Part shown: positions 4,201 to 31,001 of the stretch, piece by piece
Position numbering within the stretch: the first letter of the stretch is position 1
Layout: each line of letters opens with the position of its first letter
NCBI RefSeq assembly: GCF_003611635.1
Contig: NZ_RAVZ01000045.1
Span: forward strand, 1 to 38,977
DNA from: Corallococcus terminator
GTDB taxonomy: Bacteria > Myxococcota > Myxococcia > Myxococcales > Myxococcaceae
Direction: 5' to 3'
Length of the DNA: 38,977 nt
Position numbers and translations under genes: made by a program
The notes under the pieces: model-generated
The model's input: the letters and a program-made list of their open reading frames with translations, nothing else
Told to the model about the DNA's origin: nothing
The model's database searches: none

Positions 4201-4763
4201 CGCGGGAGACGCACCTGAAGGCGTGCGGCTGGGCCACGCCGCTGCCGGACACCGCGCCCGTCCATCGGGCGTACTTCCGGGTGGATGGGGGCGCCCCCAT
4301 TCATGTGACGCCCGACCTCAGCGGGGGCTTTGTCCTCACGTGGCTGGACCTGACCGAAGGCACGCACGTCGTGGAGTTGACCGCCACCGACACGCGCGGG
4401 GCCTTCAGCCAGAAGCGGATGACGGTGACGGTGGACCTCACGCCGCCGGTGCTGACCGTCCTGTCACCGCTGGAGGGCGAGTCGCTCGCCAGTACCGTGG
4501 TGGCCGTGACGTCCTCCGTCCAGGATGTCTCTCCCACGCGGGTGCGGACGCAGTGGTTGGAGATGAGCCTGGTGGAGAATGGCTCGGGAACGGTCACGCA
4601 CACGGTGGACCTGTTCAACCGGGGCTTCGCGCCGCTGCTGGTGTCCGCCACGGATGAAGCGGGAAACACCACGCAGCGGGTGATGCAGGTCTTCATCGAA
4701 CCCGCCCCGCCGACTCCGCTCCTGTCGTCGAGGGCCGGGGGCATTCCGCCCGCTCCGCGGTGA
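1236..4763 (+). CDS. Large secreted lipoprotein with HYR domains
   Basis: This 1175-residue protein starts with a basic stretch, a hydrophobic core and a lipobox-like FSGC with Cys27, so it is probably an envelope lipoprotein. Residues ~40-700 are beta-rich, without a motif I recognise, and contain several cysteines. From ~742 to ~970 there are three HYR-type (hyalin repeat) immunoglobulin-like modules. The second and third open with TPPVIGC and QPPVLSC and carry the usual TDNCG or SDTC and ATDxxG signatures. Two further Ig-like modules follow (~978-1065 and ~1068-1155). HYR modules are usually adhesive. No catalytic domain is evident. The ribosome site before the ATG is weak. A TTGACG at 1181 followed 18 nt later by TAGAGG is a possible promoter. 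A strong hairpin follows the stop codon, so the gene is probably transcribed alone. A surface or matrix role is inference. Confidence 0.85.
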   Translation: MIREPVLPLRLGRVWAVLACLAVFSGCGVDRTEEAASGEVLSQAEAALDGGSVELESNVLKGTVRFTNQNPEILAFLATDPWNGDAGTVTAVSTAPTGFGASTSAIVPVSPSEYRFEMLVGAGAAGGQGVTYNVGASRGTYSFPSLAGVTVPPVSGQPAPTEVTVQGCMGVVQFAFGTDATCQTPVAVRDVYIPFLPLHGSGPYRGFIAGGTARANPLSYWVNTPTGWVNQTVPMEYSVSCDQIVRKCIPVTPPEQVEPGRLTGAFEIHGEPVHGSMRVLFNGPTSGNKVLHGPWYSASDPSSWWTVPNLAVGTYSVGGIVELRSGRNYTYFNARTLDPAVILAGQSTSLTKQVEGMTRHAFDMHPAYFYGAVQLEDPFVPRHPGTWSSLQALFFDADLDSNADGVPDTGLQGRGTYLAAGTPNSSSLTAFPGVFDATRGALTSTYEQVLPGPYDLPYLWTQAALNLKFWSEPVGIGPFTTRPGLYDPARFRYGSLSLRPSAAEDSSALLGPEQRFRIDHAYCFNEVQLQYAANGGRFFNPRAEVSGVFSGTDWRDQPVAYAVNGTFHGTPAVWNMPNPASYAQPEGQISLTLPQGSYTLKPGVSMVSDSGAVNDASFASLGVTLGCGQRLKLVPPLAVSISSADGCAASGTAPVSGQVKSRPAEVDRIWYRLNGGPEVTLCTNCGFDPTFSFNVPLQACGNSIQVHAFSEGMSEPATALAQLVWDDPSNGPSCAGTTCVNRPPVARCRSVTVPADGACSGCGSVDDGSYDPDTGDSLNCVQTPACPYPRGSHKATLTCTDSAGLSSTCEGTVTVRDETPPVIGCADVPVLECSAGGATASFTPSATDNCGAVSSTCVPASGGRFPLGTTATTCIATDSAGLRSSCTFPVTVRDTQPPVLSCPEPLILASTMPEGALVTPGVAVASDTCAPPQVSGPVAGVYPIGVTPVTYTATDVGGNQVTCVSTVQVTDPTLVDPPHVTLCNLPRYTRETHLKACGWATPLPDTAPVHRAYFRVDGGAPIHVTPDLSGGFVLTWLDLTEGTHVVELTATDTRGAFSQKRMTVTVDLTPPVLTVLSPLEGESLASTVVAVTSSVQDVSPTRVRTQWLEMSLVENGSGTVTHTVDLFNRGFAPLLVSATDEAGNTTQRVMQVFIEPAPPTPLLSSRAGGIPPAPR

Positions 4764-5605: not shown

Positions 5606-6583
5606 TCAGTCGAGGAAGCGGCGCCACCAGCGCCGGGTTTCTTCTTCGGTGAAGTCGGACCAGGTGTTGAAGGGACGGAAGGGTTGGAGCCAGGGCTCCA
5701 GGACCTGGGCGAGCTCGCGGTATGCCAGCAGGGGGTTCGGTTCATCCAGCTTCGTGTCACCCGCCAACGGGGCGGCCCCCAGGCTGACCAGGGCGCGTCC
5801 CTCGGTGAGTTCCTGGACCGTGGTGTCAGGATTGCTCAGGCGCGAGCGAAGCGTCTGGGCGCCGCCCACGGCTTCGAGTACGGAGGGTCCCAGGAAGTTC
5901 AGCCAGTGAATGCCGTCGATCTGGTTGCCCAGGTCCATCGTGGCGCCTGTGTTCGGTACGTCCCAGCCTGGATGCCGGTTCAGCTCATTCTTGATGATGG
6001 GTAGGATTCTCGAGCGACCCCAGGTAAAGGAGAGCGACAGTCCGGCATGGCCCGTCGTGAAGGGAAGATGCTCCGCGAACTCCAAGGCGAGGTCTCGCAA
6101 CTTGTCGGCGCCGTGGTCTGTGAGGAAGCGAATCGGGACACTGACGCTCAGTATGCTGTGTTCGGACGATATCTCACACCAGGGCAACCGGGCGCGGTAT
6201 CTGAATTCATAGCCAGAGGGATCGAACGTGTCTCCGGTCAGGAGTATCCCCGTGTCAAAACCTCGCTTGGTCAAGATGCGAAACCAGGTGGAGTCCTCGT
6301 CCATGTCATCCAGAAAGCCAAAGCGAGGAGTCTCCAGGTGCTTGTGGATGGTTGCCCACGCGGAGGCTGTGAGCGGGAATGGAGCTTCGTTGATGTCGGA
6401 GCTTTGGCCCGTCGTCAGTTTGTTGCCGTCATCTCCAATGTGTCGGAGGTAGATGTCGAGCATCTGCCGCAGGCGAGGGGCCAATGCCCTATGGTCATGC
6501 GGCAGGTAGAAGACGACTCGTGCCTGGAGCTGGACCCGCGGGAGTTCCTCGGCGAAGTGTTCCGATGAGGAGTATCTAGTCAC
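5606..6583 (-). CDS. DUF3396-type immunity protein
   Basis: The 325-residue product has the look of the DUF3396 (type VI immunity) family, as in the RVVFYLPHDHRALAPRLRQM opening, the central GHAGLSLSFTW segment and the DGIHWLNFLGP segment. Proteins of this family protect cells from PD-(D/E)XK-type (VRR-Nuc) nuclease effectors in enterobacterial TseV/TsiV pairs, as I recall from the literature. Translation appears to start at GTG 6583, which overlaps the stop of the upstream lipoprotein gene by 8 nt, a typical arrangement for coupled toxin and immunity genes. No signal peptide is present, so it should act in the cytoplasm, where a nuclease would strike. Immunity function is inferred from family and position, and its cognate toxin is probably the lipoprotein at 6576-7340. 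Confidence 0.78.
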   Translation of the reverse strand: MTRYSSSEHFAEELPRVQLQARVVFYLPHDHRALAPRLRQMLDIYLRHIGDDGNKLTTGQSSDINEAPFPLTASAWATIHKHLETPRFGFLDDMDEDSTWFRILTKRGFDTGILLTGDTFDPSGYEFRYRARLPWCEISSEHSILSVSVPIRFLTDHGADKLRDLALEFAEHLPFTTGHAGLSLSFTWGRSRILPIIKNELNRHPGWDVPNTGATMDLGNQIDGIHWLNFLGPSVLEAVGGAQTLRSRLSNPDTTVQELTEGRALVSLGAAPLAGDTKLDEPNPLLAYRELAQVLEPWLQPFRPFNTWSDFTEEETRRWWRRFLD

Positions 6584-7340
6584 GAATGATTCCCAGTTGA
6601 GGTGTGACGATCGCAGGATTGCAATGTCCTCCGAGCTTCTTGTAGAGAGTCATCTGGTCTTGTGTGTCGGGATCGGAGCGCGGATTCTCCTTTCTGGATT
6701 TCATGCATGGAAATTTGAAATCGTAGACGCATTGGACCTGCCCTGGCTGGCCTGTCGCGTGAGTGACGACGTCAGGCTTCATTGAACCCGTCCATCGGTT
6801 CGTCAATGAGTATCCGCCCGGTTTGCCATTGGGGCCATAGCGCGGTTCGATGGAGATGTTCTCGGGAAAGAGCCGGAGGATTTCCTGCTGGACGCACTTG
6901 AAGGCCCGCTCGTGTTTCATGCGGCCCAGCTCCGCCTGCCGGGGGATGGGATCGCCCGCTTTGTCCTTCCCGACCTGTCGCATGCACTCGGCATCGTCTG
7001 GACTCTTTCCCTCCCCATACTCCCGCTCATTGATCTTGAAATGCGCCTTCTTCGCGCACTCCACCAGCAGGTACTCAATCCGTGCCACGTCCGCGGCCTC
7101 CAGGACGCGCTGGGCGGCATGGGCAGCCGCCGCCGCCCTCGCGGCACGCCCCACCCAGGGCAGGATGGTGTCACTGCCCGTCTGGGTGTAGCAGGCCGGA
7201 TTGCGAAGACAGGCATTCGTCGCGGAGTCCACGGTCTGTTTGTAATGGCCCGATCCCGAAGCACACGACAGGCAGAGCAGGGCAACCCATCCAGCCAGCC
7301 ACCGGCTCAAGCCCTCAATCATCCTCTTCGTCCATGTCAT
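6576..7340 (-). CDS. Lipoprotein with PD-(D/E)XK-like nuclease C-terminus (SitA-like toxin candidate)
   Basis: From ATG 7340 the product has 254 residues. KR, a hydrophobic stretch and CLSC with Cys26 form a lipoprotein-type signal, although the -3 residue is unusual. The middle part contains an Ala-rich helix (WVGRAARAAAAAHAAQRVLEA). The C-terminal third has KPDVV followed 15 residues later by VYDFKFPC, i.e. D190, D207 and K209 in the spacing of a PD-(D/E)XK nuclease core, then a DQMTLYKKLGG helix. A lipoprotein signal joined to a cytoplasmic-type nuclease, followed by an overlapping immunity-type gene, is the architecture of myxobacterial SitA toxins, which spread by outer-membrane exchange. 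The start overlaps the preceding gene by 26 nt; an alternative ATG at 7322 overlaps by 8 nt. Toxin activity is inferred. Confidence 0.72.
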   Translation of the reverse strand: MTWTKRMIEGLSRWLAGWVALLCLSCASGSGHYKQTVDSATNACLRNPACYTQTGSDTILPWVGRAARAAAAAHAAQRVLEAADVARIEYLLVECAKKAHFKINEREYGEGKSPDDAECMRQVGKDKAGDPIPRQAELGRMKHERAFKCVQQEILRLFPENISIEPRYGPNGKPGGYSLTNRWTGSMKPDVVTHATGQPGQVQCVYDFKFPCMKSRKENPRSDPDTQDQMTLYKKLGGHCNPAIVTPQLGIIRD

Positions 7341-18715: not shown

Positions 18716-19729
18716 TTAGAAGCTCGTGAAATCAATCTGCAGGATGGGTGTGTCCGCTTCGATGTCGCGCCGGAACCGCCCCCACCGGTCGAGCGTGCTC
18801 TCGTCGAGCACGGCCGGGTCGCGATACTGGTGGAACAGCGCGTAATTCATCGAGCGCTGGAGCGCGAGCAGGTCCGGCACGGCCGCGAGCCACTCGCGCT
18901 CCATCCGTCGGAGCTCCCGATACCCTTCGAGGAACGGCCCCAGGAACGCAGCGACTGCTTCGTCGCGCGCCTCTCGAGCCTCGCCTCGCGCGATGTAGAA
19001 GAGGAGTACCGCGATGTCCTTGACGAACCACGCGTACTCGCAGTTGTCGAAGTCGAACGCGGTGATCTTCCCTTCGGCGAAGCAGAAGTTGTGCATGTGG
19101 AGATCGGCGTGGATCAGCCCGTAGCTCTCCGGTGTTCGCGGTAGCCGGTTCAATCGCGCGATGATCGCCGCGGTGCGCTCGCGAACGAGCTTCTCCTCGG
19201 GGGGCGCGAACCGGTTGATGTCGACCACGTCGTACTCATGCCATTCCTGGCGCTTGAGCCTGGGGCTCGAAGGCGCGTAGGTCTCGGCGCGGTTGTGGAG
19301 CCGCGCGAACAGCCGGCCCAGGTCGCGGAACAGGGGGGGCTTCCAGTAGCGCTCCTTGAGCGGAGGTGCGTCGTCGAAGACGATGCCCGGCGCGCGCTCG
19401 AACGCGGTGGCGACGAAGTAGCTGCCGGGCTCGCGGTCTTCGATCCGCTCCACGAACTGCCCCGAATCGGAGAGGATCGGCGAGGCGATTGGAATGCGCG
19501 CGGCGGCCAGGTAGCGAACGAACTCGACCTCACCCAGCGTGTAGTCGATCGTTCGCCGCGTACTGTGCGAGATGCGCAAGATAATGCCTTCGCCGTCGTC
19601 GTTCTCCGCCTCGTAGACGAAGTTCTCGAAGGCCGCGAGCTCGGTGAGCTGCTCGGGCGACAGGCCATACCGGCGCGCAGCCTCATCGCGAATCGGTTCG
19701 TGGAAGCGGCGGACGAGCTCTGGATGCAT
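18716..19729 (-). CDS. Aminoglycoside-phosphotransferase-fold kinase
   Basis: The 337-residue product has the APH/choline-kinase fold. It shows an N-terminal lobe (NFVYEAENDDGEGIILRISH), the catalytic loop HADLHMHNF with Asp209, and the metal-binding AFDFDNCEYAWFVKDIA segment. The overall look is closest to the homoserine-kinase/SrkA-like part of the family rather than to a known antibiotic-resistance enzyme. AGAGGA lies 5 nt before the ATG, and the start is 8 nt after the 582-residue gene, so it is the last cistron of the six-gene exporter operon. In this setting it could phosphorylate the exported compound or protect the producer. The substrate is unknown. Confidence 0.85.
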   Translation of the reverse strand: MHPELVRRFHEPIRDEAARRYGLSPEQLTELAAFENFVYEAENDDGEGIILRISHSTRRTIDYTLGEVEFVRYLAAARIPIASPILSDSGQFVERIEDREPGSYFVATAFERAPGIVFDDAPPLKERYWKPPLFRDLGRLFARLHNRAETYAPSSPRLKRQEWHEYDVVDINRFAPPEEKLVRERTAAIIARLNRLPRTPESYGLIHADLHMHNFCFAEGKITAFDFDNCEYAWFVKDIAVLLFYIARGEAREARDEAVAAFLGPFLEGYRELRRMEREWLAAVPDLLALQRSMNYALFHQYRDPAVLDESTLDRWGRFRRDIEADTPILQIDFTSF

Positions 19730-19737
19730 CGAATCCT

Positions 19738-21486
19738 CTAGTCCTTCAACGTGAGGCTGCTCTCACCGTAGCCCAGCACGGTCGAGGCAGAGTCGCTGGT
19801 GACCGAGACGCCCAGGCCGCGCGCGAGGGTCTCCGCCAACGGGGGGCCATTGCGCGGCCGCGTGAACACAGCCAGGTCTGTGCCGGTCAAGGGGTGATCC
19901 GGGCGCCGGAGCCGCTGGTTCAGCATCGCTTGCTCGCGCTCGACGACGCGCAGGCACCGGCGCTCGAGGGCGAACGCGCTGGCAGCGACGCCAGCGAGCT
20001 CACCGCGGATGAGCTCCGCCACGACCTTGTCTCCCGGCAGCCCATGCGCGAAGAGCTCGGCCAGCCGCCGCTGGCTCGTGGCCTGCTCGGCGGGATCCAG
20101 CTTCGCCAGCTCGTCCAGCGAGGTGCCCTGTGGCGTGCCGGGGAACGCCTCGCCGATGCGCGCGAACAACCAGCGGCTGAGCTTGATTTCGCGCTGGTAG
20201 GTCTCGGCGAGTGGGAAATCGTCCCGGAGCAACGGGTAATGCGCGACATCGATGGGCGCCTCCACGCACTCTTGCAGCGCGGTGCGCGGAAGGTGTCCGG
20301 CGAACGCCGCCCGGAGCCGTTCGTGGAGCAGCCCCTGGGTCGCGCCGAGGAAGCGGACCACCGATTCGACGCGCTGCCCGAGCAGGCCGTAATCGATCGC
20401 GGCGTCGAGATCGCCGAGGCGCGCTGCGATGTCGGGCTGGGCCTCGATGGGTGCCGGGGCCGAGCCGGTCAACACCTGCAGATATTCGTTGATCAGCGCC
20501 GGCGGCCCGGCGCACACGCCGTGCGGACCATGGAAGACCGCGTGACGCTCGGCATGGTCCACGATCGTTTGCGCGGTGACGGGCTGCTCGGGGGCGTCGC
20601 GCACCAGGTCGTTGGTGACCAGGCGAACTCCGTCGATCAGCCGGAACATGGCCGCGAGCCCGCTGTCGAGCTCTCCGTTCGGCACCGGATGGGTGCCCCG
20701 CACCAGCACGTACCCGACCGACGCGAGCGTGCAGACGACCATCATGTGGAGCTCGCCCGCGGTGAGCACGCCCGGGGTCCGGGGCGGCATGCGCGCGAGG
20801 AAGGCCTTGCGGAACTGCTCGGTCAGCGAGAGCAGGTCCGGCCACTGACGCGCCATGGCCTTCATTGCGGTCACGTTCATCGGGAGTTCGCTCTGGTACC
20901 GGCTCCCCGCGTAGTGGCACTGCTTGCGCACGGTCGGGAGATCGAGGAACAAGGTGCGCGGTGCGACGTTGTTCTCGCCCACTTGCCGGCCGTCACCGTC
21001 GAGCGCCGGATGCGCCACGCGGTAGACCGGCACGACCACCTCGAGGTTCGAGAGCTCGAACGCCCGTCCGAACGCCTGTTCGGTCAGCACGGGGCAACGG
21101 TTGTCGCGGGCGCTGAACGTGAGCGGCTCACGCCCGGCTGGCACCTCACCCAACCGCTCAGGGAAGGACACCGCGGTGCGGCCCGTGGGCGCATCCGAGA
21201 CCCGCCTCAACACCCGCTGTTCGATCAATGCTTCGAGCAGGTCCCGGATCTTGTCCCAGGAATGGGGCGCGCCGTCCGACCACGCCATGGCGTCGGAGGC
21301 TTGAAATTGCTCGACCTGGAGCAGCTTCTCGCCCAAGGGCGCGATGTCTGGCTCGTCGAAGATGAGCTCCACTTCGCCATAGAAGAGGTGCAGGACCTGC
21401 TGGCCATTGCCTGCGTCGAGCCGGTCGTGCGTGAGCCGCCTTCGATTGGGAATGTAGAGCATCTCATCCGCTTGCAGTTGTGCCAT
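19738..21486 (-). CDS. Unrecognised 582-aa cytoplasmic protein in exporter operon
   Basis: The gene starts at ATG 21486, 6 nt after the outer-membrane-factor gene, with GAGAAG upstream. The product has no signal peptide or membrane segment. Residues ~1-95 could form a small winged-helix-like unit (HSWDKIRDLLEALIEQRVL). The middle contains scattered His and Cys residues (RKQCHYAGSRYQSELP, ELHMMVVCTLASVGYVLVRG, ERHAVFHGPHGVCAG). The C-terminal third is helical and ends in SVTSDSASTVLGYGESSLT. I recognise no family and no nucleotide, SAM, flavin or Fe-S motif. Placement between export genes and a small-molecule-type kinase makes a peptide-tailoring or substrate-binding role plausible, but this is a guess. 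Confidence 0.82.
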   Translation of the reverse strand: MAQLQADEMLYIPNRRRLTHDRLDAGNGQQVLHLFYGEVELIFDEPDIAPLGEKLLQVEQFQASDAMAWSDGAPHSWDKIRDLLEALIEQRVLRRVSDAPTGRTAVSFPERLGEVPAGREPLTFSARDNRCPVLTEQAFGRAFELSNLEVVVPVYRVAHPALDGDGRQVGENNVAPRTLFLDLPTVRKQCHYAGSRYQSELPMNVTAMKAMARQWPDLLSLTEQFRKAFLARMPPRTPGVLTAGELHMMVVCTLASVGYVLVRGTHPVPNGELDSGLAAMFRLIDGVRLVTNDLVRDAPEQPVTAQTIVDHAERHAVFHGPHGVCAGPPALINEYLQVLTGSAPAPIEAQPDIAARLGDLDAAIDYGLLGQRVESVVRFLGATQGLLHERLRAAFAGHLPRTALQECVEAPIDVAHYPLLRDDFPLAETYQREIKLSRWLFARIGEAFPGTPQGTSLDELAKLDPAEQATSQRRLAELFAHGLPGDKVVAELIRGELAGVAASAFALERRCLRVVEREQAMLNQRLRRPDHPLTGTDLAVFTRPRNGPPLAETLARGLGVSVTSDSASTVLGYGESSLTLKD

Positions 21487-21492
21487 GGCTTC

Positions 21493-22986
21493 TCACTCCC
21501 TCTCCAGTGTGACGTCGCGCGACCAGGTGCCGCCGAGCGAGCGATAGACCGCGACGCGATGGTTGAGCAGCAGCCGTTGCGCTTGCAGACTTGCGCGCTC
21601 GAGCCCGACCAGATTCGTCAGGGCGCTGAGCACCGTCAGATAGTCCGATTGCCCCTGCTCGAAGAGCCGCCTCGCCTCGTCCAGGAGCTGCCGCCCGAGC
21701 TGGACCTGCGCACGCAGGCTGCGCAGGCTCGTCGCCTCGTTCTCCTCCTGGACCACGGCATCCTGCACCCGTCCGATCGCGGTGTGCAGCGCGAGCTGGT
21801 ATTGGACATGGCGACGCTGGAGCTGGATCGGCAGTCGCAAGTACTCGGTGACTCGCCTTCCATCGAACAGGGCCCAGGTCAGGCCCACCCCGACGACGGA
21901 CTCGCCCAGAACCGGCTCCTTGAGGCCGTACTTCGAAGCGCCCACGTTGCCCACCAGTTGGATCGTCGGAAGCCAGCTCGCCAGGTTCGCGTTGATGCGG
22001 TGCTCGACCTCGGCGACGCGCAGCTCCGCGAGCCGCATCTCGGGCGTGTTCACGTTCAGGTCGCCCGGCGTTCCGAGTTTCGGTGGGGGCGGGAGATCGG
22101 GAAGCTGTCGATCGAGTGGAACGACGTCGTCGGCGGGGCTGGGTACCCGGCCCAGCAGCGCCTTCAGCTCCGAATTCAAGAGCGCGTTCCGGGTGGCGAT
22201 CAGCGGCACCTGCGATTCGAGGTTCACCAGCAGTTGCTCCTGCTGCAGCACCACGAGCCGGGGCGTGAGGTGCTGCTCGAACCGCGCTCGAATCAGCCGG
22301 AGCAGCTCCTTGTTGTAGTCGATCTGCCGCAGCGTGAGGTCCCGGAGCGCGCGGGCCTCCAGGATGTCGAACCAGAGCTGGGTGATCCGCACCGCGAGGT
22401 CCTGGACGCGGCCCTCGGTGAGCTGCCGCTGCTGCTCGGCGAAGTTCAATCCCGCGCGCCGCTGCGCATCGAGGGCTCCAAACAGGTCGACCTGGTAGGC
22501 CACGCCCACTCCGACGGTGGCGACGCTGTACTCGGTCCGGGTTGGCGGCGCGGGCGGAACGTTGGCGACGACATGACTCAGCCCCGCCGGGTTCAGGATG
22601 CCGACCTGGAGCGGGTACCACCAACCTTGCGGCACGGCGGGGTCGAGCTGGTTCTCGTAGATCAGCTCCCGCGCGTCGCGCAGGGCCAGGTTGTCGCTGA
22701 AGCACTCCTGGATGGCCGTGTCGAGAGCCGGATCGGCGAACGCCGACCACCAGACTGCGTCCTGGGTGGCGCGCTCGGCTGGCTGCGCGGGCACGCCCTC
22801 CTCCGACGGCTGCGGGCTTGGAACCCCGCCCTCGGGTGCGCTGGACGGTTGGGGCGGCTGGGTGCGCGGATCGACGGCGGTCGAGTAGCTGCTCGGCGCC
22901 AGAGGCGGTTCGACGACGACGGGACGGATCAGCTCGCAACCGGAGCAGATCGTCGCGAGGAGGGCGAGCGTGAATCGAAGTCTCAT
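21493..22986 (-). CDS. TolC/NodT-family outer-membrane factor lipoprotein
   Basis: The 497-residue product begins with a lipoprotein signal (LLATICSGC, Cys17) and a Pro-rich linker. The two-fold repeated helical and strand pattern of outer-membrane efflux proteins follows: WWSAFADPALDTAIQECFSDN near ~75, YQVDLFGALDAQRRAGLN near ~160, and the second-half VGVGLTWALFDGRRV. It is the trimeric outer-membrane exit duct of a tripartite exporter. The start ATG overlaps the stop of the preceding ABC gene (ATGA). The partners upstream are an HlyD-like adaptor and two ABC exporters. The product class is secure; the cargo is not. Confidence 0.92.
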   Translation of the reverse strand: MRLRFTLALLATICSGCELIRPVVVEPPLAPSSYSTAVDPRTQPPQPSSAPEGGVPSPQPSEEGVPAQPAERATQDAVWWSAFADPALDTAIQECFSDNLALRDARELIYENQLDPAVPQGWWYPLQVGILNPAGLSHVVANVPPAPPTRTEYSVATVGVGVAYQVDLFGALDAQRRAGLNFAEQQRQLTEGRVQDLAVRITQLWFDILEARALRDLTLRQIDYNKELLRLIRARFEQHLTPRLVVLQQEQLLVNLESQVPLIATRNALLNSELKALLGRVPSPADDVVPLDRQLPDLPPPPKLGTPGDLNVNTPEMRLAELRVAEVEHRINANLASWLPTIQLVGNVGASKYGLKEPVLGESVVGVGLTWALFDGRRVTEYLRLPIQLQRRHVQYQLALHTAIGRVQDAVVQEENEATSLRSLRAQVQLGRQLLDEARRLFEQGQSDYLTVLSALTNLVGLERASLQAQRLLLNHRVAVYRSLGGTWSRDVTLERE

Positions 22987-25094
22987 GGGTGGCTGACGAC
23001 CACGAGGGCTTTCGCGTGGTTGAGGACGCAGCGCTGCGCGACCCGCATGGTCTCGGGATCGAGGGAGGCGAAGCTCTCGTCGAGGATGACCAGCTCGACC
23101 CCCTGCAGCAGCGTGCGCGCGATGTAGAGCCGGCTCTTCTCGCCGTGCGAGAGTTGCCAGCCGGTCTCGCCGATCATCTCCTCGAGGCCGGCGGGCATCT
23201 TGGCGACCAGCTCGTCCAGCCCGAGCTCCTTGCACAGCGCGGCGGCCTTGGTCCGCAGCTCGGGCGAGGTCGGCCACTCGCGCCCGAGCAGGAGATTGTA
23301 CGCGAAGCTGCCGGACAGGACGTGGTTCTCGTGGAACTGCGGCGCGGCGGTGATGCGCTTGCGCCAGCCCGAGGAGCCGAACGTCGCGCGGTCCAACGCG
23401 TGCAGCAGCATCACACCGCCCTGCGGCGTCCTCAGGCCCGTCAACAGCGACACCAGCGTCGACTTGCCACCGCCCGATGGGCCCTCCAGCAGGATGCGGT
23501 CGCCCTGAGCGATCTGGAACGAGCAGTTCTCGAGCACCGGCCGGGTGCGCGCGTCGTGCCGGAAGGTCACGCCCCGCGCCTCGATGAGGGTTCCGCCGGC
23601 GGCGTCGGTGGGCTTGCCTCCCTCCATTTCGAGAGGGACTTTCGATTCGAGCTCGGGGCGGCCCACCGCGAGCAACAAGTCGCGGATCTGCTCGAACGAC
23701 ACCGCCGCCTGGGAGACCTGCTGGAAGTAGACGGCGACCTCGTCGAAGGCTCGCAGCGCGAGCAAGATGCCGCCCACGGACACCGCCAGCGCGCTGGCAT
23801 TGGCCGTACCGCTGCTGAACGCCGGCAGCAAGGTCAGCAGGGCGAGCACCAACCAGCCGTCGCGCAGGAGCGCGGTCAGTTGCATGGTCCGGCGATCCAT
23901 GACCTTCGAGATCTCGGAGTAGGAGCTCAAGCGGACGTCTTCGCCATCATGCCAGCGCTCGAGTGGAAGCTGCGCCAGCCGCGTTCGATGGCCGAGCATG
24001 CGCTCGAGCAGGTCGTGGGTGATCTCGACGCGCGCGCTCGACCACGCCCGCTGGACGCCGTAGTGGCGGCGCGCGAGGACGAACGCGACCACGACCCACA
24101 GGGCGAGCACCATCGCCTGGGGCCACCCTCCCGCCCCGAGCACGAGGATGACGCCCGCCAGGATCAAGTCGACGAGCGACAACACCGCGAGCAGGGCGCC
24201 GCCGACCGCAAGCTGCTCGACGACCTCGGCCTCGGCGACGCGGCCGAAATGGCGGCCGATGCCGTCGAGCCGCACCTCGTCGGGGGTCAGCTTGAGGGTT
24301 CCCGCGAGGAGTTGCTGCTTCAGCAGCGTTCCGAGCCGGATCGAGAACACGCCCTGCCACCACACCTCGAGCATGCGTAGCGGAATCGCGCACGCAATCA
24401 CGGCGATCCACCCCAGGAACCAGCCGGTCTCGAGGTGGGCCTGGAGCGCGGCGCGACCGAGCAACCAGAACGAGCCAGCCAGCACCAGCGAGAGGAGCGT
24501 GTGGCTCACGAGGATGCCGGCGACGAGCGATGGGATGTCGCCGAGCAGCGTCCGCCGGCTCGCGGTGCGCCGGGGGCGCATGATCCACCCGGTGCGCAAC
24601 TGCGCCTGGCCGAGCCGCTGCAGCAGCATCTGTGAGCGGGCGTGCTCGCGCGCACGGGGCGACATCTCCACGCCGCCGAGCAACTGGTCCACCTCGGCGA
24701 CGGTGGCTTCCTGCTCTTCGCGCAGGAGCGCGAGCGCGCTCTTCGTCTGGACCGAAACCGCCGTGGCGTCGCGCGCGAGCAGGCGCAGCTTCCCGCGCCG
24801 CGTACCCAGCAGCACCAGATAGGACGGGACGCCGTCTCGCCGGACCTGGAGGATGCAGGGCGCGGCGCGTTCGAGGACGTCGGGCAACTCGTGGTAGAGC
24901 GGCGTGATCGGCTCGAGCTCCACGCCGAGTCGATCTCCGAGCGCGAACATCCAGACCCGGCTCGGCTCGACGGCCGCCGCGGGCGGAGCGATCTCGCCCG
25001 CGGCCCTGCCATAGCCTTGCCTCTGCGCCAGTTGCTCCAGCGCGTCGGGCAGTCGCTCGACCGGCCACAACAGGTCAAAGTGCGAGCGCGTCAT
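22983..25094 (-). CDS. ABC exporter with degenerate C39-like N-terminal domain
   Basis: The 703-residue protein consists of an N-terminal ~150-residue domain, an exporter membrane domain of about six helices (~205-480) and a nucleotide-binding domain. The latter has Walker A GPSGGGKST (Lys544), signature LSHGEKSR in place of LSGGQ, Walker B LVILDESFA with the catalytic Glu, and H-loop VVSHP at the very end. The N-terminal domain resembles a C39 peptidase fold in outline (CILQVRRDGVPSYLVLLG) but lacks the catalytic Cys and His, so it would bind but not cut a leader. The start ATG overlaps the stop of the protease-ABC gene as ATGA. It probably pairs with that protein, as in NHLM-type two-ABC bacteriocin systems. 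Confidence 0.88.
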   Translation of the reverse strand: MTRSHFDLLWPVERLPDALEQLAQRQGYGRAAGEIAPPAAAVEPSRVWMFALGDRLGVELEPITPLYHELPDVLERAAPCILQVRRDGVPSYLVLLGTRRGKLRLLARDATAVSVQTKSALALLREEQEATVAEVDQLLGGVEMSPRAREHARSQMLLQRLGQAQLRTGWIMRPRRTASRRTLLGDIPSLVAGILVSHTLLSLVLAGSFWLLGRAALQAHLETGWFLGWIAVIACAIPLRMLEVWWQGVFSIRLGTLLKQQLLAGTLKLTPDEVRLDGIGRHFGRVAEAEVVEQLAVGGALLAVLSLVDLILAGVILVLGAGGWPQAMVLALWVVVAFVLARRHYGVQRAWSSARVEITHDLLERMLGHRTRLAQLPLERWHDGEDVRLSSYSEISKVMDRRTMQLTALLRDGWLVLALLTLLPAFSSGTANASALAVSVGGILLALRAFDEVAVYFQQVSQAAVSFEQIRDLLLAVGRPELESKVPLEMEGGKPTDAAGGTLIEARGVTFRHDARTRPVLENCSFQIAQGDRILLEGPSGGGKSTLVSLLTGLRTPQGGVMLLHALDRATFGSSGWRKRITAAPQFHENHVLSGSFAYNLLLGREWPTSPELRTKAAALCKELGLDELVAKMPAGLEEMIGETGWQLSHGEKSRLYIARTLLQGVELVILDESFASLDPETMRVAQRCVLNHAKALVVVSHP

Positions 25095-27820
25095 CCCGCC
25101 AGCTCCAACTTGCCTGCGGCGGGCTCCGCGACCGGCGTCTCCACCGGCTTCGGCGCCGGCCTCTCCACCAGTTGGCCATCCGAAAGCCACCACTGGCGCC
25201 AGCGCCCACCGCCCCAGAGCAGCGTGCGATTCTCCTGGTCGGCGCGAAGGAGCACGGCGTACCGCGACTCTTTGTTCGCGAGCAGCTCCTTCGGCGGCCC
25301 GTTCTCGAGGATCCGACCGTTCTCGATCACGAGCACGCGATCGAACTCCTGGGTGTGCTCGACGTCGTGGGTGACACAGAGGAGCGTGATGTCTGCCCAG
25401 AGCCGCCGGGACTCGGCGAGGAGCCGCGCGCGCCGGTCGCGATCAAGACCACGAAAGGGCTCGTCGAGGATGGCCAGGCGCACGCCGGAGCGAAGCATCG
25501 CGCGCGCCAGGCGCACGCGCTGACCTTGGCCGCCCGAGACCAGCCCTCCGCCTTCGCCCAACGACGTCTGCAGCCCGTCTGGAAGCGCCTCGAGGATGTC
25601 GAGCATTTCGGCGCCCTTGAGCGCCCCCGACAGTGACCAGCCGTGCGCGCCGTCGTTGCCATACCGGAGGTTGTCGATGAGGCTCTGGTTCCAGAGACTG
25701 ATCGCCGGATCCACCCAGGCCGTGGTGCGCCGCAGCCGCTCGACAGCGGCCTGATTGAGCACCTGCCCGTCGACCTTGATCTCGCCGCGCGCCGGCCGGA
25801 GCCAGCCGAGCAAAAGGCCGACCAGCGTCGACTTGCCTGCTCCGGAGACACCGACCACGGCCACGTGCTCGCCGGGGGCGATGTTCAAGGAAACCTTGTC
25901 GAGGATGGTGTGACCGCCGCCTTTCACGCGGACCTTCTCCATCACGATCGAAACGCCGCTCGCGGCGTCCGCGGGCGCGACAGGCTCCTGCACTGGCGCC
26001 TCGGGCCGGGCCGGCGGATCCTTGATGTCGCCGATGACGTCGAGGAGCCGGCGAACCCGGTTCATCGCATTCGGGAACGCGCGGCTCAGCATCATCAGCC
26101 GCTGGCCGAGGATGGGGAAGCGCAGCGCCCAATAGACGACCAACAACACCAGCGAAGCCCGATCGGTGCCCTCGAGGTACGAATAGACGAGCAGCATGAC
26201 GAGGCCGTAGCTCATCAGCATCAGCCCGCCTTCGAACCCGACCGACAGCGTCTGGAGCCAATAGCGCGCCTTGCTCCAACTGACGAGCAAGGTCTCCTGC
26301 GCGCGGCGCAGCGACCGCTCGGCGCCGTGGATCCGGATCGGCGTGAGCCCGACGAGCGCGTTCAGGGTGAATCCGCTGAGCGCGCCTGAGTGCATCTGCA
26401 CGCGCAGGTCGGGCTCGAAGAGCAGCTTCTGCGCGACCAGGGGCACGAGCAGCGTGACCGCCGCGAGCGCGAGCACGATGTGCCATGCGTGCGGTGCGGC
26501 CCAGATGAGCGCGGCAGTGATGCTCGCGACTTCGAGCGACAGGACCAGGGCCTGCGAGAGCAGGAGTGGCAGCGACCGCATCGCCTGGATGTGGTGCGTG
26601 CGAGACGCCATGTCGGAGGCGAGCCGGCTCTGGAAATAGCGGTCCTCCATCTCGGGGAGCTTCTCGAAATACGCCTTCCGCAGCCGCACCTCGAGCCGGC
26701 GGCCGATGCCGAGCAATCCCAATGAAACGGGGATTTGGATGAGCATGAAGCAGAGCGCGACGCCCGCGAGAACGGCCATGCCCGTCGCACGCTGCGCGAA
26801 CGTGCCGAGGTCGCGCCCCAGGTCGAGCACGCCACGGAGCATCAGCGCTTGCAGGATCCGCCCGAAGGTGGCGAACACCAGTCCCACCGCAATCAGGCCC
26901 GGAACGACCCACGAATCTTCGCCTCGCAGGCGGAGCAACGTTCGCGCGGGGCTCACCTGCTTGGCGACGAGCTCCGTCGCCAGGTCGCTCGCGAGCACGG
27001 CTCTCGGCGCGTCTTCGCCTGCGCGCGAAGCCTCGCGCCAACCGCGAACCCGCATCAGCACCGCGCCGGTCATCGACAGCTCGCCCTCCACCTCGGGGTT
27101 GGGGCGAACGGACCAATAGGCAGCGGGAATGGGCACTTCGCCGGAATCGTCCTTCGCAATCATGGATTGCAGCAGACCCGCCGCCGTCCGGCCTCGCCGG
27201 ACGGCGCCCGCGCGGATCATCGCTTCGGACGCCCGGCACGCGGCGTCGAGCCTGGCGATCGACAGATACCCGGGGTCCTCGAGCGCCCGGGCAACCAGCG
27301 CCCGCGCCTGCGTCGCACCCAGGTTCAGCAGGCGGCGCTCGATCGTCGCGACCGCCTCCTCGGACCCGGCCCATTCGCGCCAGCCGGTCGCCGGAACGGA
27401 CGTGGTGTGCTGGTACAGGCGGCTCAGCAGCGTCGAAATCCGGGTCCAGTGACGGCCCGCCGCCGGGTCCATGACCTGGATGAACGGGCCGACGCGATTC
27501 CACAGCACCACGAAGTGCGGCCGTCCTCCCGCGCTGAGCGTGACGATGATGGCGGGAAGCGCCTTGGCTTCGGGGACCACCACGTGATCGAGCGGAAGCA
27601 TCACCTCCTCGGCGTCGAGCCCGAGCTGGTTCGCGACTTCATCCAAGGTGACGATCGAGGTGCCATCGACGTCCGTCTGACACACTTCGCGAAGGACGCG
27701 ATAGTTGAGCTCGGCGCCCATCCCCGCGAACAGGCTCTTGAGCGAAGCGGGACCGCAGTCCGTCGCCGAGATCTGGATCACCTCGGGAATGATCGAGCGC
27801 CGGCGCCTGGGAGGAGTCAT
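25091..27820 (-). CDS. C39-peptidase-containing ABC exporter (PCAT)
   Basis: The 909-residue protein starts with a C39 cysteine-protease domain bearing an intact triad: ATDCGPASL (Cys22), RPHFVVLWN (His102) and VMDPAAG (Asp118), with Gln16 as the likely oxyanion residue. Such domains cut leader peptides after Gly-Gly during export. An unassigned ~150-residue insert precedes the membrane domain (~300-580). The nucleotide-binding domain has Walker A GVSGAGKST (Lys663), signature VSGGQGQRVRLARAML, Walker B LAILDEP and H-loop VTHD. It lies 2 nt after the HlyD-like gene and is the only protease in the operon, so it is the expected maturation step for a Gly-Gly peptide such as the 14-residue product at 29255. 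The resemblance is to NHLM-type bacteriocin exporters. Confidence 0.93.
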   Translation of the reverse strand: MTPPRRRRSIIPEVIQISATDCGPASLKSLFAGMGAELNYRVLREVCQTDVDGTSIVTLDEVANQLGLDAEEVMLPLDHVVVPEAKALPAIIVTLSAGGRPHFVVLWNRVGPFIQVMDPAAGRHWTRISTLLSRLYQHTTSVPATGWREWAGSEEAVATIERRLLNLGATQARALVARALEDPGYLSIARLDAACRASEAMIRAGAVRRGRTAAGLLQSMIAKDDSGEVPIPAAYWSVRPNPEVEGELSMTGAVLMRVRGWREASRAGEDAPRAVLASDLATELVAKQVSPARTLLRLRGEDSWVVPGLIAVGLVFATFGRILQALMLRGVLDLGRDLGTFAQRATGMAVLAGVALCFMLIQIPVSLGLLGIGRRLEVRLRKAYFEKLPEMEDRYFQSRLASDMASRTHHIQAMRSLPLLLSQALVLSLEVASITAALIWAAPHAWHIVLALAAVTLLVPLVAQKLLFEPDLRVQMHSGALSGFTLNALVGLTPIRIHGAERSLRRAQETLLVSWSKARYWLQTLSVGFEGGLMLMSYGLVMLLVYSYLEGTDRASLVLLVVYWALRFPILGQRLMMLSRAFPNAMNRVRRLLDVIGDIKDPPARPEAPVQEPVAPADAASGVSIVMEKVRVKGGGHTILDKVSLNIAPGEHVAVVGVSGAGKSTLVGLLLGWLRPARGEIKVDGQVLNQAAVERLRRTTAWVDPAISLWNQSLIDNLRYGNDGAHGWSLSGALKGAEMLDILEALPDGLQTSLGEGGGLVSGGQGQRVRLARAMLRSGVRLAILDEPFRGLDRDRRARLLAESRRLWADITLLCVTHDVEHTQEFDRVLVIENGRILENGPPKELLANKESRYAVLLRADQENRTLLWGGGRWRQWWLSDGQLVERPAPKPVETPVAEPAAGKLELAG

Positions 27821-27822
27821 GG

Positions 27823-29040
27823 TCAGCGGGCCTCGGCTTCGGGCCGAAACTCGGCCGTGGGCCGTTCTTCAGGCTGCGGATTCCATTCGCCGACCGCCCG
27901 CATCAGCAGCGCGACAGGCGACGCCCGCGCGACCTCGACCTCCACCACCAGGGTCATGCCGTGGCGCAGCTGGATGCGCGGATCGTCCGGCGGTGCGAAC
28001 TTGAGCTCGACGCGCACCGTACCGGGGATGGCCTCGGGCGTGGCGGTCTGGCCGGGCTCGGTCCCGACGGCCGTCACCCTGGCGGGGACCGTCCCGTAGA
28101 TGGTCATCGGGTAGCCGTCGAGCTTGAGGCGCGCCGTTTGGCCGGGCTGGATCAACCCGACGACCTCCTTCGGGAAACGGGCGCGCACCCGCACCTCGGC
28201 ATCGCTCGCGACGATGGTGCCGACCCGCTGCCCGTCGGCGATGAACGCTCCCGCGCCGAGCTCCGCCACGTCGACCAGGTGGCCCGTGGCCGGCGCCCGA
28301 TACAGCTTCCGCTCGATCTGGTACTCGAGGCGGTCGATGGCGCCCTGGAGCTCCCGGATCCGCCCCTCGGCGTTCAGCTCCTCGCGCTCGAGTTCCAGCA
28401 GTTGCGCGGCGAGGGCTTGACGGCGCACGTTCTGCTCGCGCTGCAGTCGGATGAGCGCCAGGCCCTGCGCCGTCTGCGCGAAGCGGAGTGCGTCGACATC
28501 GGTCGTGCGCTCGAGCTTCTCCATCTCCGAGACCGCGCCCGTCGGGCTCTTGAGGGCCAACTGCGCGCGTTCCACCGCGAGCCGGTGCCTGGGCGCGAGC
28601 TCCTGCTCCCTCCCCAGCGCCTCCTTGACTGCGACCTCGTCCACCTTTGCCGTCAAAGCCGCCTCTTCGTGCTTGTTGGTGATCTGCTGGCGGATGATGG
28701 CGAGCTCCTTCTCGGTCGCGGCGAGCGTCGCCTTGCTCCGCTCGAGCTCGAGGCGCTCGGCCCGTGCGTCGAACTCGATGAGAAGGTCGCCTTCCTTGAC
28801 CTCCTGATCGAGTTTGAGCAGCGAGAGCACGACCCTGCCCGCGCTGGGCGGCTCAATGCGATGGACGGCGTTGTGTGGCTCGATCCGGGCCTGTGAACTG
28901 GCCTTGACGAGCGGGACCTTGGCGAACAGCGACCAGGCGATGAGCCCGCCGACACACAACACCATCAGAGCGACGAACACGAGGCGCGTGTCCGACTCGT
29001 AGTTCAGGGAACGAAGGGTCCGCTCGAAGGGATATGCCAT
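27823..29040 (-). CDS. HlyD-family periplasmic adaptor (membrane fusion protein)
   Basis: The 405-residue product has one N-terminal membrane helix (~20-39), a biotinyl-lipoyl-like half-motif (SAGRVVLSLLKLDQEVKEGD, ~65-85), a long coiled coil (~95-245), the returning lipoyl half (RAPATGHLVDVAELGAGAF) and beta-barrel segments. It links the inner-membrane ABC exporters to the outer-membrane factor encoded downstream. It is the first gene of a six-gene operon running to 18716. No clear Shine-Dalgarno precedes ATG 29040. The 214-bp gap upstream separates it from the divergent 14-codon gene. A TACAAT at 29116-29121 (minus strand) is a possible -10. Confidence 0.92.
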   Translation of the reverse strand: MAYPFERTLRSLNYESDTRLVFVALMVLCVGGLIAWSLFAKVPLVKASSQARIEPHNAVHRIEPPSAGRVVLSLLKLDQEVKEGDLLIEFDARAERLELERSKATLAATEKELAIIRQQITNKHEEAALTAKVDEVAVKEALGREQELAPRHRLAVERAQLALKSPTGAVSEMEKLERTTDVDALRFAQTAQGLALIRLQREQNVRRQALAAQLLELEREELNAEGRIRELQGAIDRLEYQIERKLYRAPATGHLVDVAELGAGAFIADGQRVGTIVASDAEVRVRARFPKEVVGLIQPGQTARLKLDGYPMTIYGTVPARVTAVGTEPGQTATPEAIPGTVRVELKFAPPDDPRIQLRHGMTLVVEVEVARASPVALLMRAVGEWNPQPEERPTAEFRPEAEAR

Positions 29041-29200
29041 GGTCCGCGAACCAAAGTCGCCTTAATGGCCGCGCCGTGTCAACACCTCGGCCACTGCTTT
29101 GTGATTCACGCTCCCATTGTATGAATACAGGGCACCTTGATGCGACGCGGGACTTCGTCTGCATCGCCGCAATGCGTTGCATATTGTTCTCTGGTTCGAT

Positions 29201-29230
29201 TTGACATCCAGCTTCGAGTACACGTAGCGT
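29201..29230 (+). promoter_or_regulatory. Candidate promoter of 14-codon gene
   Basis: A perfect TTGACA at 29201-29206 is followed 18 nt later by TAGCGT, a weak -10 match. The predicted start near 29237 would leave a leader of about 18 nt beginning just before the ribosome site. The surrounding 29100-29240 is less GC-rich than the coding DNA. The -10 assignment is uncertain. Confidence 0.45.
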
Positions 29231-29238
29231 TCAACTCG

Positions 29239-29246
29239 AAAGGAGG
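29239..29246 (+). promoter_or_regulatory. Consensus ribosome binding site for 14-codon gene
   Basis: AAAGGAGG lies 8 nt before the ATG at 29255. It is the strongest Shine-Dalgarno match in the window and points to heavy translation of the tiny reading frame. Confidence 0.8.
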
Positions 29247-29254
29247 CACACACC

Positions 29255-29299
29255 ATGAAGATCAAGATCCACGTCCGCGGCGGCCCGAAGGCGCGTTAG
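29255..29299 (+). CDS. Candidate 14-aa peptide precursor MKIKIHVRGGPKAR
   Basis: The frame ATG to TAG encodes 14 residues, MKIKIHVRGGPKAR, and a second in-frame TAG follows at once. A consensus ribosome site lies 8 nt upstream, a TTGACA promoter element upstream of that, and a rho-independent terminator starts 63 nt downstream, so the unit is self-contained. The peptide is strongly basic and alternates hydrophobic and charged residues before Gly9-Gly10. The divergent operon encodes a C39 protease-exporter that would be expected to cut after Gly-Gly, releasing PKAR or leaving a 10-residue piece. Alternatives are a leader peptide for attenuation or part of a small RNA. It is too short for standard gene callers and I know no firm homologue. 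Confidence 0.6.
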   Translation: MKIKIHVRGGPKAR

Positions 29300-29305
29300 T
29301 AGTCA

Positions 29306-29318
29306 GGCGTTTGACGCC
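29306..29318 (+). other. Small hairpin just after the 14-codon gene
   Basis: GGCGT, a TTG loop and ACGCC form a 5-bp stem starting 6 nt after the stop codon. It might stabilise the short transcript or take part in regulation. It lies between the coding part and the terminator. Confidence 0.35.
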
Positions 29319-29361
29319 AGCCGTCGGGGCTGTTCGCTCCTCGTTTCCGGTGACCAGAGGG

Positions 29362-29400
29362 GGGGTGATGGGGATCTTCCATCAGCCCCTCTTCTCATTT
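29362..29400 (+). terminator. Rho-independent terminator of 14-codon gene
   Basis: GGGGTGATGG (from 29362) pairs with CCATCAGCCCC (29379-29389) around a 7-nt loop with a single bulged G, giving about 10 base pairs. The tail TCTTCTCATTT is T-rich. It would end a transcript of roughly 160-170 nt beginning at the candidate promoter at 29201. Confidence 0.7.
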
Positions 29401-29533
29401 CTGGCAACGTCTTGATCTTGCAGGTGCTCGTTCCTGCCAGGTTGCTCCAGAGTCAACGACCGCTCCAGCCCAGGGTGCCAGCGGACGAGGAGCGTGGCAC
29501 GTAGAGCGCGTGAATGACGGTGCTTCGACGAGC

Positions 29534-29693: not shown

Positions 29694-30254
29694 TCAACTC
29701 ATTCCCCAGTTGCCCAAAAAGTCGCCCATGGTGAGTCGCACGCCTTGGTTGCGCAAGATGCCGTAGGCGGTGGTCACGTGATAGAAGAAGTGGGGGATCG
29801 CGAATGCGATCAGAAACTGGCGGCCACTGGAGTGCATTGAGCCACGGCGGTGCTCAATTACGATCTCTCGATCGAGGCCGGCTTCGAGGTCGCTTGGCGC
29901 GATCTCTCGGAGATACGCGATCGTCGCATCGAGCCGCTGGTGCAGATCCGCAAAGCTCTTTGCATCGTTCGCGGCCGGCACCCGTGGCGCACCCAGCAAC
30001 TGCGCGATCGCCAACCAGGCTCCCTCCGCAGCCCAGTGGACTTGAGCAGCGAGCGTGTACATGTGCAGGTCAGTTGGCGCGTCACTCGCAACGCCACGCA
30101 TGCGCCCTTCCGCAGTGAGTTGCGCGTCGAGCAACGCCGCTTCACTGCTGCCACTGGCAGCGGCATGGTCTTCGGCCTTCGTCAACTGCGTTTTCAAGTT
30201 GGTCAGTCCGCGGACGAAGAGGCCAGCAGATAGATCGTAGGCATTCAAAGACAT
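29694..30254 (-). CDS. DUF1993-family protein
   Basis: The 186-residue product matches the DUF1993 family. It starts MSLNAYDLSAGLFVRGLTNL, contains a conserved helical core with SFADLHQRLDATIAYLREI, and ends with AIPHFFYHVTTAYGILRNQG followed by DFLGNWGMS. The family is related in outline to DinB-like four-helix proteins and has no established reaction that I know of. GAAGGA precedes the ATG at 30254. The gene lies between a solo IS end and a degenerate IS, so it may have been brought in or merely trapped. Confidence 0.85.
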   Translation of the reverse strand: MSLNAYDLSAGLFVRGLTNLKTQLTKAEDHAAASGSSEAALLDAQLTAEGRMRGVASDAPTDLHMYTLAAQVHWAAEGAWLAIAQLLGAPRVPAANDAKSFADLHQRLDATIAYLREIAPSDLEAGLDREIVIEHRRGSMHSSGRQFLIAFAIPHFFYHVTTAYGILRNQGVRLTMGDFLGNWGMS

Positions 30255-30326
30255 GGCCCATCCTTCACCGCGTCATGCGCCAGTGCCAACCGGTCACGTC
30301 CGGCGCGTATTGATGAAACGCAATAC

Positions 30327-30351
30327 TTACAGCCTCTAACAAATGTCAGGG
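30327..30351 (+). repeat. Terminal inverted repeat, left end of IS
   Basis: This 25-bp end begins TTACAGCCTCTAAC and ends GTCAGGG. It matches the inverted right end at 20 of 25 positions. The inner edge overlaps the transposase 3' end. Confidence 0.6.
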
Positions 30352-30934
30352 TAGAGGCGGCGTAGGAGCATGACGCAGCAGCCGAGAACGAGGAAGCCGA
30401 AGTGAACATCGTCCCTGCGCTCATCGCGGACGCGAAGCCGGCGCAGCTGGTTCTTCCAGGCCAGCGTGCGCTCCACCACCCAGCGGTAGCGTCCCAGCCG
30501 TTCCTTGGACTCGACGCCTGGGCGGGCGATGCGCGGAGCAATGCCGCGCAGGCGCAAGCCGAGTCGGTTCTTCCTGGAGGCATAGGCTTTGTCGCCGTGG
30601 ACCTTCGCGGGACGGAAGCGTCGCTGCCACGAAGGCATCCTCACCGCGGGCACGGAGTTGACGAGGGAGAAGAGTTCGTGTGTGTCGTGGACGTTGGCCG
30701 CTGTCACCGACTCGGTGAGAGGCAGCCCATGGCTGTCATGCCCGACAGGCCGAACTGCTTGCGAGGCAGCATCTCCCACGGGATGCCGCTCCTGAGCACG
30801 AAGACGATGGCCTCCAGCGCCGCCCGGTCGTCCGCACGAGGGCGGCCCAGCTTCTTCTTCGGCCGAGGCGGAGGCGGAGGCAGCAGGGGCGTCACGCGCT
30901 GCCAGAAGGCGTCGGGGACGAGTTCACGGACCAT
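30336..30934 (-). pseudogene. Broken IS5/IS427-like transposase
   Basis: The N-terminal part from ATG 30934 reads VPDAFWQRVTPLLPPPPPRP then ADDRAALEAIVFVLRSGIPW and KQFGLSGM, which is typical of the IS427 group. At about 30738 it jumps, in another frame, to HDSHGLPLTESVTAANVHD, then VHGDKAYASRKNR and RYRWVVERTLAW. The intervening roughly 90-100 residues, including the first catalytic Asp of the DDE triad, are missing, while the second Asp and the Glu remain. A programmed frameshift is known in this group but cannot restore the missing segment, so the enzyme is dead. Confidence 0.8.
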
Positions 30935-30976
30935 GTCCCTCAAGCTGATGAGGCCCCTTGCCAACGGCCAGCCCAG

Positions 30977-31001
30977 CCCTGACTTTCGTTAGGTGCTGTG
31001 A
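30977..31001 (-). repeat. Terminal inverted repeat, right end of IS
   Basis: Read inward on the minus strand it is TCACAGCACCTAACG to GTCAGGG. It matches the left end at 20 of 25 and the solo end at 29619 at 21 of 25 positions. The hsdR relic begins right outside it. Confidence 0.6.

Follow-up and report, generated by a model that had tools for sequence, protein, structure and literature searches.

Precursors of ribosomally synthesized and post-translationally modified peptides (RiPPs) form families in which a near-invariant leader precedes a variable core, frequently in tandem arrays, and in pathways that use a RiPP recognition element (RRE), such as those of PbtF (thiopeptide), TbiB1 (lasso), ThcOx (cyanobactin) and McbB (microcin B17), a precursor with a constant N-terminal block accompanies a protein that has the RRE fold. 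Double-glycine peptides are handled by peptidase-containing ATP-binding cassette (ABC) transporters (PCATs) with a C39 domain, and their leaders usually form a helix with hydrophobic residues at positions -4, -7 and -12 (PMC10885120). Very small ribosomal precursor genes are also described: the biarylitides, a group with a myxobacterial member, myxarylin, have a five-residue precursor encoded by an 18-bp gene (PMC13417212, PMC12951456). Here we analyze a 14-codon gene located at positions 29255 to 29302 (+) of contig NZ_RAVZ01000045.1 of Corallococcus terminator (GCF_003611635.1; positions 1 to 38,977 of the forward strand, 38,977 nt, hereafter the window), which lies divergent from an exporter operon. 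According to our analysis, it is a real gene constrained at the protein level and one of a family of peptides that accompanies a 582-residue protein of the operon, U582, and it probably encodes an exceptionally small RiPP-like precursor.

The frame reads ATG AAG ATC AAG ATC CAC GTC CGC GGC GGC CCG AAG GCG CGT (29255 to 29296), encodes MKIKIHVRGGPKAR and is directly followed by TAG TAG at 29297 to 29302. A degenerate pattern run on public genome contigs retrieved exact copies of the frame in seven loci, nearly all from records with myxobacterial names, while a search allowing one mismatch in 145 genomes of the order, the comparison set for presence counts, detected exact or one-mismatch copies in 23, some of which carry two. 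All 23 have the orthologous frame together with the exporter operon, which bears out the conservation expected by an earlier, sequence-only reading of this DNA, and Gly9-Gly10 is invariant within the clade of window-type peptides, where PKAR, the last four residues, is strongly identical as well. Among 29 distinct copies, only codon 5 (Ile/Leu) and codon 13 (one Ser) vary in residue, third-position changes in codons 7, 10, 11, 13 and 14 are synonymous, and identity of the upstream flank drops to about 0.3 to 0.6, against a far better conserved frame. Since the search pattern covered the first 29 bases of the frame, the fair tests of conservation are codons 11 to 14 and the independent relatives; by sequence comparison, the conservation of the peptide is far beyond chance. 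The two stop codons in a row, to which the sequence-only reading had drawn attention, are present, but their conservation is partial: at codon 15 as at codon 16, TAG is the most frequent triplet (20 of the 29 copies), and in paralogs that contain an additional Ser or Ala the first stop position is a sense codon and the frame closes at the second. One public record with the same operon at 93 to 95% identity (BNCN01000007.1) is labelled Comamonas sp. KCTC 72670 and is probably mislabelled or contaminated. A Myxococcales metagenome-assembled genome has the copy MKIKIHVRGGPKSRG, with no operon gene found within the 8 kb examined. At two further loci, L153 (12141 to 12386) and L154 (about 6500 to 6960), second peptide copies adjoin remnants of the HlyD gene, suggesting a tandem duplication of the peptide-HlyD junction.

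The peptide had appeared to be a lone tiny oddity; it is instead the smallest type among at least 67 relatives. The 67 distinct family peptides collected are 14 to 44 residues long and share the N-terminal block M[KQ][IV][KQ]xx[VI][RK][GAS]G, mostly MxIKTKVRGG, so that the first 10 residues are near-invariant, while the tails that follow are variable and the genes often stand in tandem arrays. The family thus provides the encoded, conserved precursor with a leader-like block and a variable core that a RiPP pathway requires. In the distant operon of G010, which belongs to another bacterial family (U582 and HlyD about 54% identical), four tandem frames of 14 to 17 residues (L089/L096, positions 125, 294, 959 and 1122), oriented in the operon's own direction, lie just upstream of HlyD and alternate between two types (MKIQTNVKAGLTKIR, MKIQTNVRAGVLVKGR, MKIQTNVKAGMKIR and MKIQTNVRAGLIAVKGR). 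At loci whose U582 homologs are more distant (about 35% identity), the peptides include MQIKTKVRGGPRGCGGVIAV and MKIKTTIRGGLTAIRTVPIVGRGCGGGGGFPVLLPKTIVVE. The cores of two family peptides, FNPQPDPPG (L171) and LNPQPEPPG... (L158), are very different from the Cys-containing cores, and one genome, G120, contains 23 pattern-matching copies across several contigs, many of them far from U582. Six longer family peptides had no match in Pfam or NCBIfam, and exact-string searches for the peptide motifs found nothing in the searched literature, which under-covers subscription journals; as far as we searched, the peptide family is undescribed.

The sequence-only reading had taken the exporter as the key partner of the peptide, but it is U582 that tracks the family, as judged from gene distribution. 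U582 is encoded at 19738 to 21486 (-), and proteins at least 90% identical to it occur in exactly the 23 of 145 genomes with the window-type peptide. A pattern for the first ten residues of the family matched 27 genomes, and none when reversed as a control; these 27, together with G056, G112 and G114, which have an Ile-to-Leu form, coincide exactly with the 30 genomes that encode full-length U582. A family peptide thus occurs in all 30 of these genomes and in none of the 115 others (Fisher P of 1e-31, uncorrected for shared ancestry), and extending the U582 search to 195 genomes of the phylum returned full-length U582 in the same 30 genomes only. Of the distant and more distant U582 loci, we opened 19, and every one has peptides in the same region, including seven (L098, L099, L101, L102, L103, L107 and L110) where the opened region gave no match to HlyD or PCAT. 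At L150 and L151, two exporter loci that we opened and that lack U582, no short family peptide was found; the peptide therefore follows U582. U582 had no match in the PLSDB plasmids. At five loci (L109, L111, L113, L114 and L115), the same three genes recur beside U582, encoding at L113 a DHOR-like protein, a protein of no recognized type and a CCP_MauG-like di-haem peroxidase, and at L105 an animal-haem-peroxidase-like gene lies near U582.

U582 matched nothing in Pfam, NCBIfam or PADLOC, and sequence searches of the PDB with U582 and a shorter relative gave no credible match. An AlphaFold2 model built on 20 homologs (predicted local distance difference test score [pLDDT], 78.7; predicted template modelling score [pTM], 0.73) folds residues 2 to 98 as a winged helix, with strands predicted at 19 to 24, 30 to 36 and 39 to 43 and helices at 49 to 55, 63 to 68 and 77 to 89, and the order of these elements agrees with the definition of the RRE (PMC12710340). 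VIA-align matched this N-terminal domain (residues 1 to 98; 21193 to 21486, -) to the winged helix of MINA53 (Z score of 9.3), ThcOx (7.1), McbB and TigE (6.4 each), TbiB1 with its leader (6.0) and the PbtF RRE with a leader fragment (6.0), in alignments spanning 76 to 87 residues among which the NO66 winged helix also appears, although Z scores below 8 can reflect a common arrangement. We give weight to the RRE assignment because several RRE domains appear together and the next, unrelated matches reach a Z score of 5.4 at most; the N-terminal domain of U582 is thus predicted to have the RRE fold. The C-terminal domain modelled alone (pLDDT, 76; pTM, 0.82) gave nothing in Foldseek at an E value below 0.001, and VIA-align returned middling helical matches with Z scores up to 5.4. 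Cys 190 and Cys 325 are invariant in full-length and shorter U582 homologs, and no His is.

We think that the peptide is a RiPP-like precursor on which U582 and the exporter act in turn, a reading to which we assign a probability of roughly 0.7. Residues 1 to 10 (MKIKIHVRGG, 29255 to 29284, +) would act as an ultra-short leader, lying as a strand against the predicted N-terminal RRE-like winged helix of U582, an interaction suggested by the fold and the co-occurrence, and the helical C-terminal part of U582 would modify the four-residue putative core PKAR (29285 to 29296, +). Cleavage after Gly-Gly by the C39 domain of the neighbouring exporter would follow, and the complex of exporter, HlyD and outer-membrane protein would release the product. 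We infer the modification, cleavage and export, as well as the role of the product, which may be a signal, an antagonist or something else. The odds are about even that this represents a new class of RiPPs, confined to myxobacteria as far as searched, in which a novel enzyme, an RRE-like domain fused to a domain of unrecognized fold, modifies a family of precursors with a common 10-residue leader, and in which one clade has a precursor reduced to 14 residues with a core of 4.

Several points weigh against this interpretation. Of the leader pattern known for C39 substrates, MKIKIHVRGGPKAR has only the hydrophobic residue at -4 (Val); position -7 is Lys and position -12 does not exist. Such leaders end in GG, GA or GS, and while Gly9-Gly10 agrees with this, 8 of the 67 family peptides have Ala or Ser as residue 9, which gives AG or SG. 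A Pro after the cleavage site is a poor context for cysteine proteases generally, and 49 of the 67 have Pro as residue 11. The PKAR core is very small, no known enzyme resembles the C-terminal domain of U582, which may have no enzymatic function, and joint inheritance of a single gene cluster could partly explain the co-occurrence. A leader of 10 residues, as first proposed from the sequence, is upheld to the extent that a block ending in (G/A/S)G recurs across the family in genomes with such C39 exporters, but the canonical features of C39 leaders are missing. C39 processing is consequently plausible but unproven, because the helix and the hydrophobic residues at -7 and -12 are missing, residue 9 is not always Gly and Pro usually comes next.

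A longer relative of the leader was found at exporter loci without U582 in one genus (G094, G104, G108, G109 and also a second locus of G114), where a precursor-like frame of 61 residues contains KL(N/T)IKTAVRAG in its leader. At L150, this frame starts at 4579 (+), contains IKTAVRAG and adjoins genes for AurF/desaturase-like, esterase-like and JmjC_2 proteins and the exporter; it is present likewise at L173 to L177, and a 44% relative occurs in G060. As the long leader of the 61-residue precursor holds IKTAVRAG, the 10-residue block of the window peptide resembles what would be left of an ordinary, longer leader if all but its end were stripped away.

The alternative that fares best is that the peptide is an unmodified Gly-Gly pheromone that C39 cleaves and that leaves the cell as a signal, either the tetrapeptide or the 14-mer, with U582 as a chaperone or adaptor that delivers it. 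The intact C39 domain, the Gly-Gly invariant in the clade and an operon without a recognizable modifying enzyme would all suit it. We consider it unlikely, given that the family follows U582 even at loci whose surroundings yielded no exporter, and was not found at the two exporter loci lacking U582, and that RRE-like folds are usually part of modifying systems. Less probable still is a PqqA-like scaffold or donor that is consumed or extended while a small molecule is exported. The very short core, the strong identity of PKAR within the clade, the kinase-like gene of the operon and the di-haem peroxidase-like and haem peroxidase-like enzymes near other U582 loci could be read in this way, but the long, variable cores elsewhere in the family suit peptide products better, and no protein of the pyrroloquinoline quinone type was found among the Pfam matches of the operon.

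Putative expression signals surround the gene, and the TTGACA element, the Shine-Dalgarno sequence 8 nt ahead of the ATG and the 14-codon frame all stand, on direct reading, where the sequence-only reading had placed them. TTGACA (29201 to 29206) is separated by a 17-nt spacer from GTAGCG (29224 to 29229), forming a promoter-like element at 29201 to 29229 (+), and a TTGAC box with a TTAGCG/GTAGCG-like box also lies upstream of orthologous peptide frames. A strict sigma-70 scan of 29020 to 29520 called no promoter, because GTAGCG rather than TATAAT stands 17 nt past TTGACA. The Shine-Dalgarno sequence AAAGGAGG (29239 to 29246, +) is kept upstream of orthologous copies. At 29356 to 29395 (+), a hairpin with a predicted folding energy of -26.5 kcal/mol (z score of -2.9, better than 198 of 200 shuffled sequences) has a 12-pair stem retained in about 27 of 29 relatives, so the hairpin part of the proposed bulged hairpin with a T-rich tail stands, but the tail, TTCTCATTTCTGG, is weak, which is why a strict terminator scan of the same interval called none. 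The hairpin is a probable intrinsic terminator. Similarity among relatives covers about 150 nt after the stop codon, including the hairpin, and is lost past that point, which fits the self-contained unit that had been claimed. The untranslated interval between stop and hairpin (29303 to 29355) is well conserved, at 79 to 88% over the matched stretch in relatives.

That conserved tail and hairpin could be taken to indicate a small regulatory RNA in which the frame is incidental, or control of a downstream gene by a leader peptide, but both appear very improbable. The family is maintained at the protein level across different nucleotides, places and contexts, extra Ser, Ala or Gly codons in paralogs preserve the frame, and nothing is conserved beyond the hairpin; the RNA-only and attenuator readings are largely ruled out by the mostly synonymous variation, the protein family and the similarity lost past the hairpin. 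A chance frame or artefact, for which the 14-codon length alone would speak, is ruled out by conservation, with a negligible residual probability, considering the copies in seven loci and 23 of 145 genomes, the synonymous variation, the family of 67 peptides and the reversed control of 0. The DUF1993 gene, next beyond the peptide unit in the window, was not found in the seven peptide-bearing loci of public genomes, and no Rfam family matched in the window. Further on, two overlapping minus-strand frames at 30245 to 30992 look like a transposase gene of the IS5 type that a frameshift has broken in two.

The divergent operon contains, in order, genes for HlyD, the C39-ABC exporter, a second ABC protein, an outer-membrane factor, U582 and an APH-type kinase-like protein. 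In all genomes that carry the window-type peptide, orthologs of the HlyD-type periplasmic adaptor (27823 to 29040, -; PF13437, E value of 9.2e-12) exceed 90% identity. In the C39 peptidase-ABC exporter (25091 to 27820, -; PF03412, PF00664 and PF00005), the catalytic Gln, Cys, His and Asp are conserved in the window protein and its relatives, according to an alignment with 17 relatives, as the claim of a divergent operon with an intact C39 exporter requires. It is followed by a second ABC permease/ATPase subunit (22983 to 25193, -; PF00005), which is co-conserved, and by an outer-membrane efflux protein (PF02321, E value of 5.2e-29) in a mechanically called open reading frame at 21493 to 23277 (-), whose true start probably lies further inside. 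The last gene, at 18716 to 19729 (-), encodes the APH-family kinase-like protein (PF01636, E value of 1.3e-22), whose ortholog in the operon of G010 is 71% identical.

Compared with described systems, the locus resembles the RRE-using RiPP pathways in its constant N-terminal block, variable C-terminal part and adjoining predicted RRE fold, and the RiPP precursor families in its near-invariant putative leader, but the rest of U582 matches no compared enzyme family, and the leader and core would measure 10 and 4 residues. With the double-glycine peptides it shares the intact C39-ABC exporter, HlyD, the outer-membrane factor and a block ending in Gly-Gly, yet it differs in lacking a helical leader with hydrophobic residues at -7 and -12, in its length of 14, in the occasional AG or SG and in the Pro that usually comes next. 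HlyD and two ABC subunits, one with C39, recall NHLP/NHLM export, whose models (TIGR03794, TIGR03796 and TIGR03797) are among the matches, but TIGR03796 scored 190.9 against a curated NCBIfam cut-off of 853.3 bits and TIGR03794 scored 42.2 against 156.2, and 14 residues leave no room for a nitrile-hydratase-like leader. Unlike the biarylitides, the locus has a C39 exporter, an RRE-like protein and a leader conserved across a large family, the operon proteins include no P450, and the 14-mer has neither Tyr nor Trp. RRE-like winged helices have also been noted in bacterial JmjC proteins from RiPP-like contexts (PMC12710340), and JmjC_2 proteins are found at related exporter loci of other myxobacteria; in fold, the U582 N-terminal domain comes closest to the winged helices of two JmjC oxygenases, MINA53 and NO66, but U582 itself has no JmjC match.

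The system is simple, consisting of one 14-residue substrate, one candidate enzyme of unrecognized type and one exporter. Genes this short sit below the usual size limits of gene finding, so that whole sets of peptides, such as the 23 copies in one genome, are probably unannotated, and they could be listed directly by searching for the motif M[KQ]IKTxxRGG along with U582. If the assignment to a new RiPP class is correct, the peptide would be an exceptionally small leader-plus-core substrate of a C39 exporter, and if U582 does modify PKAR, the locus could reveal both new chemistry and the lower size limit of leader and core.
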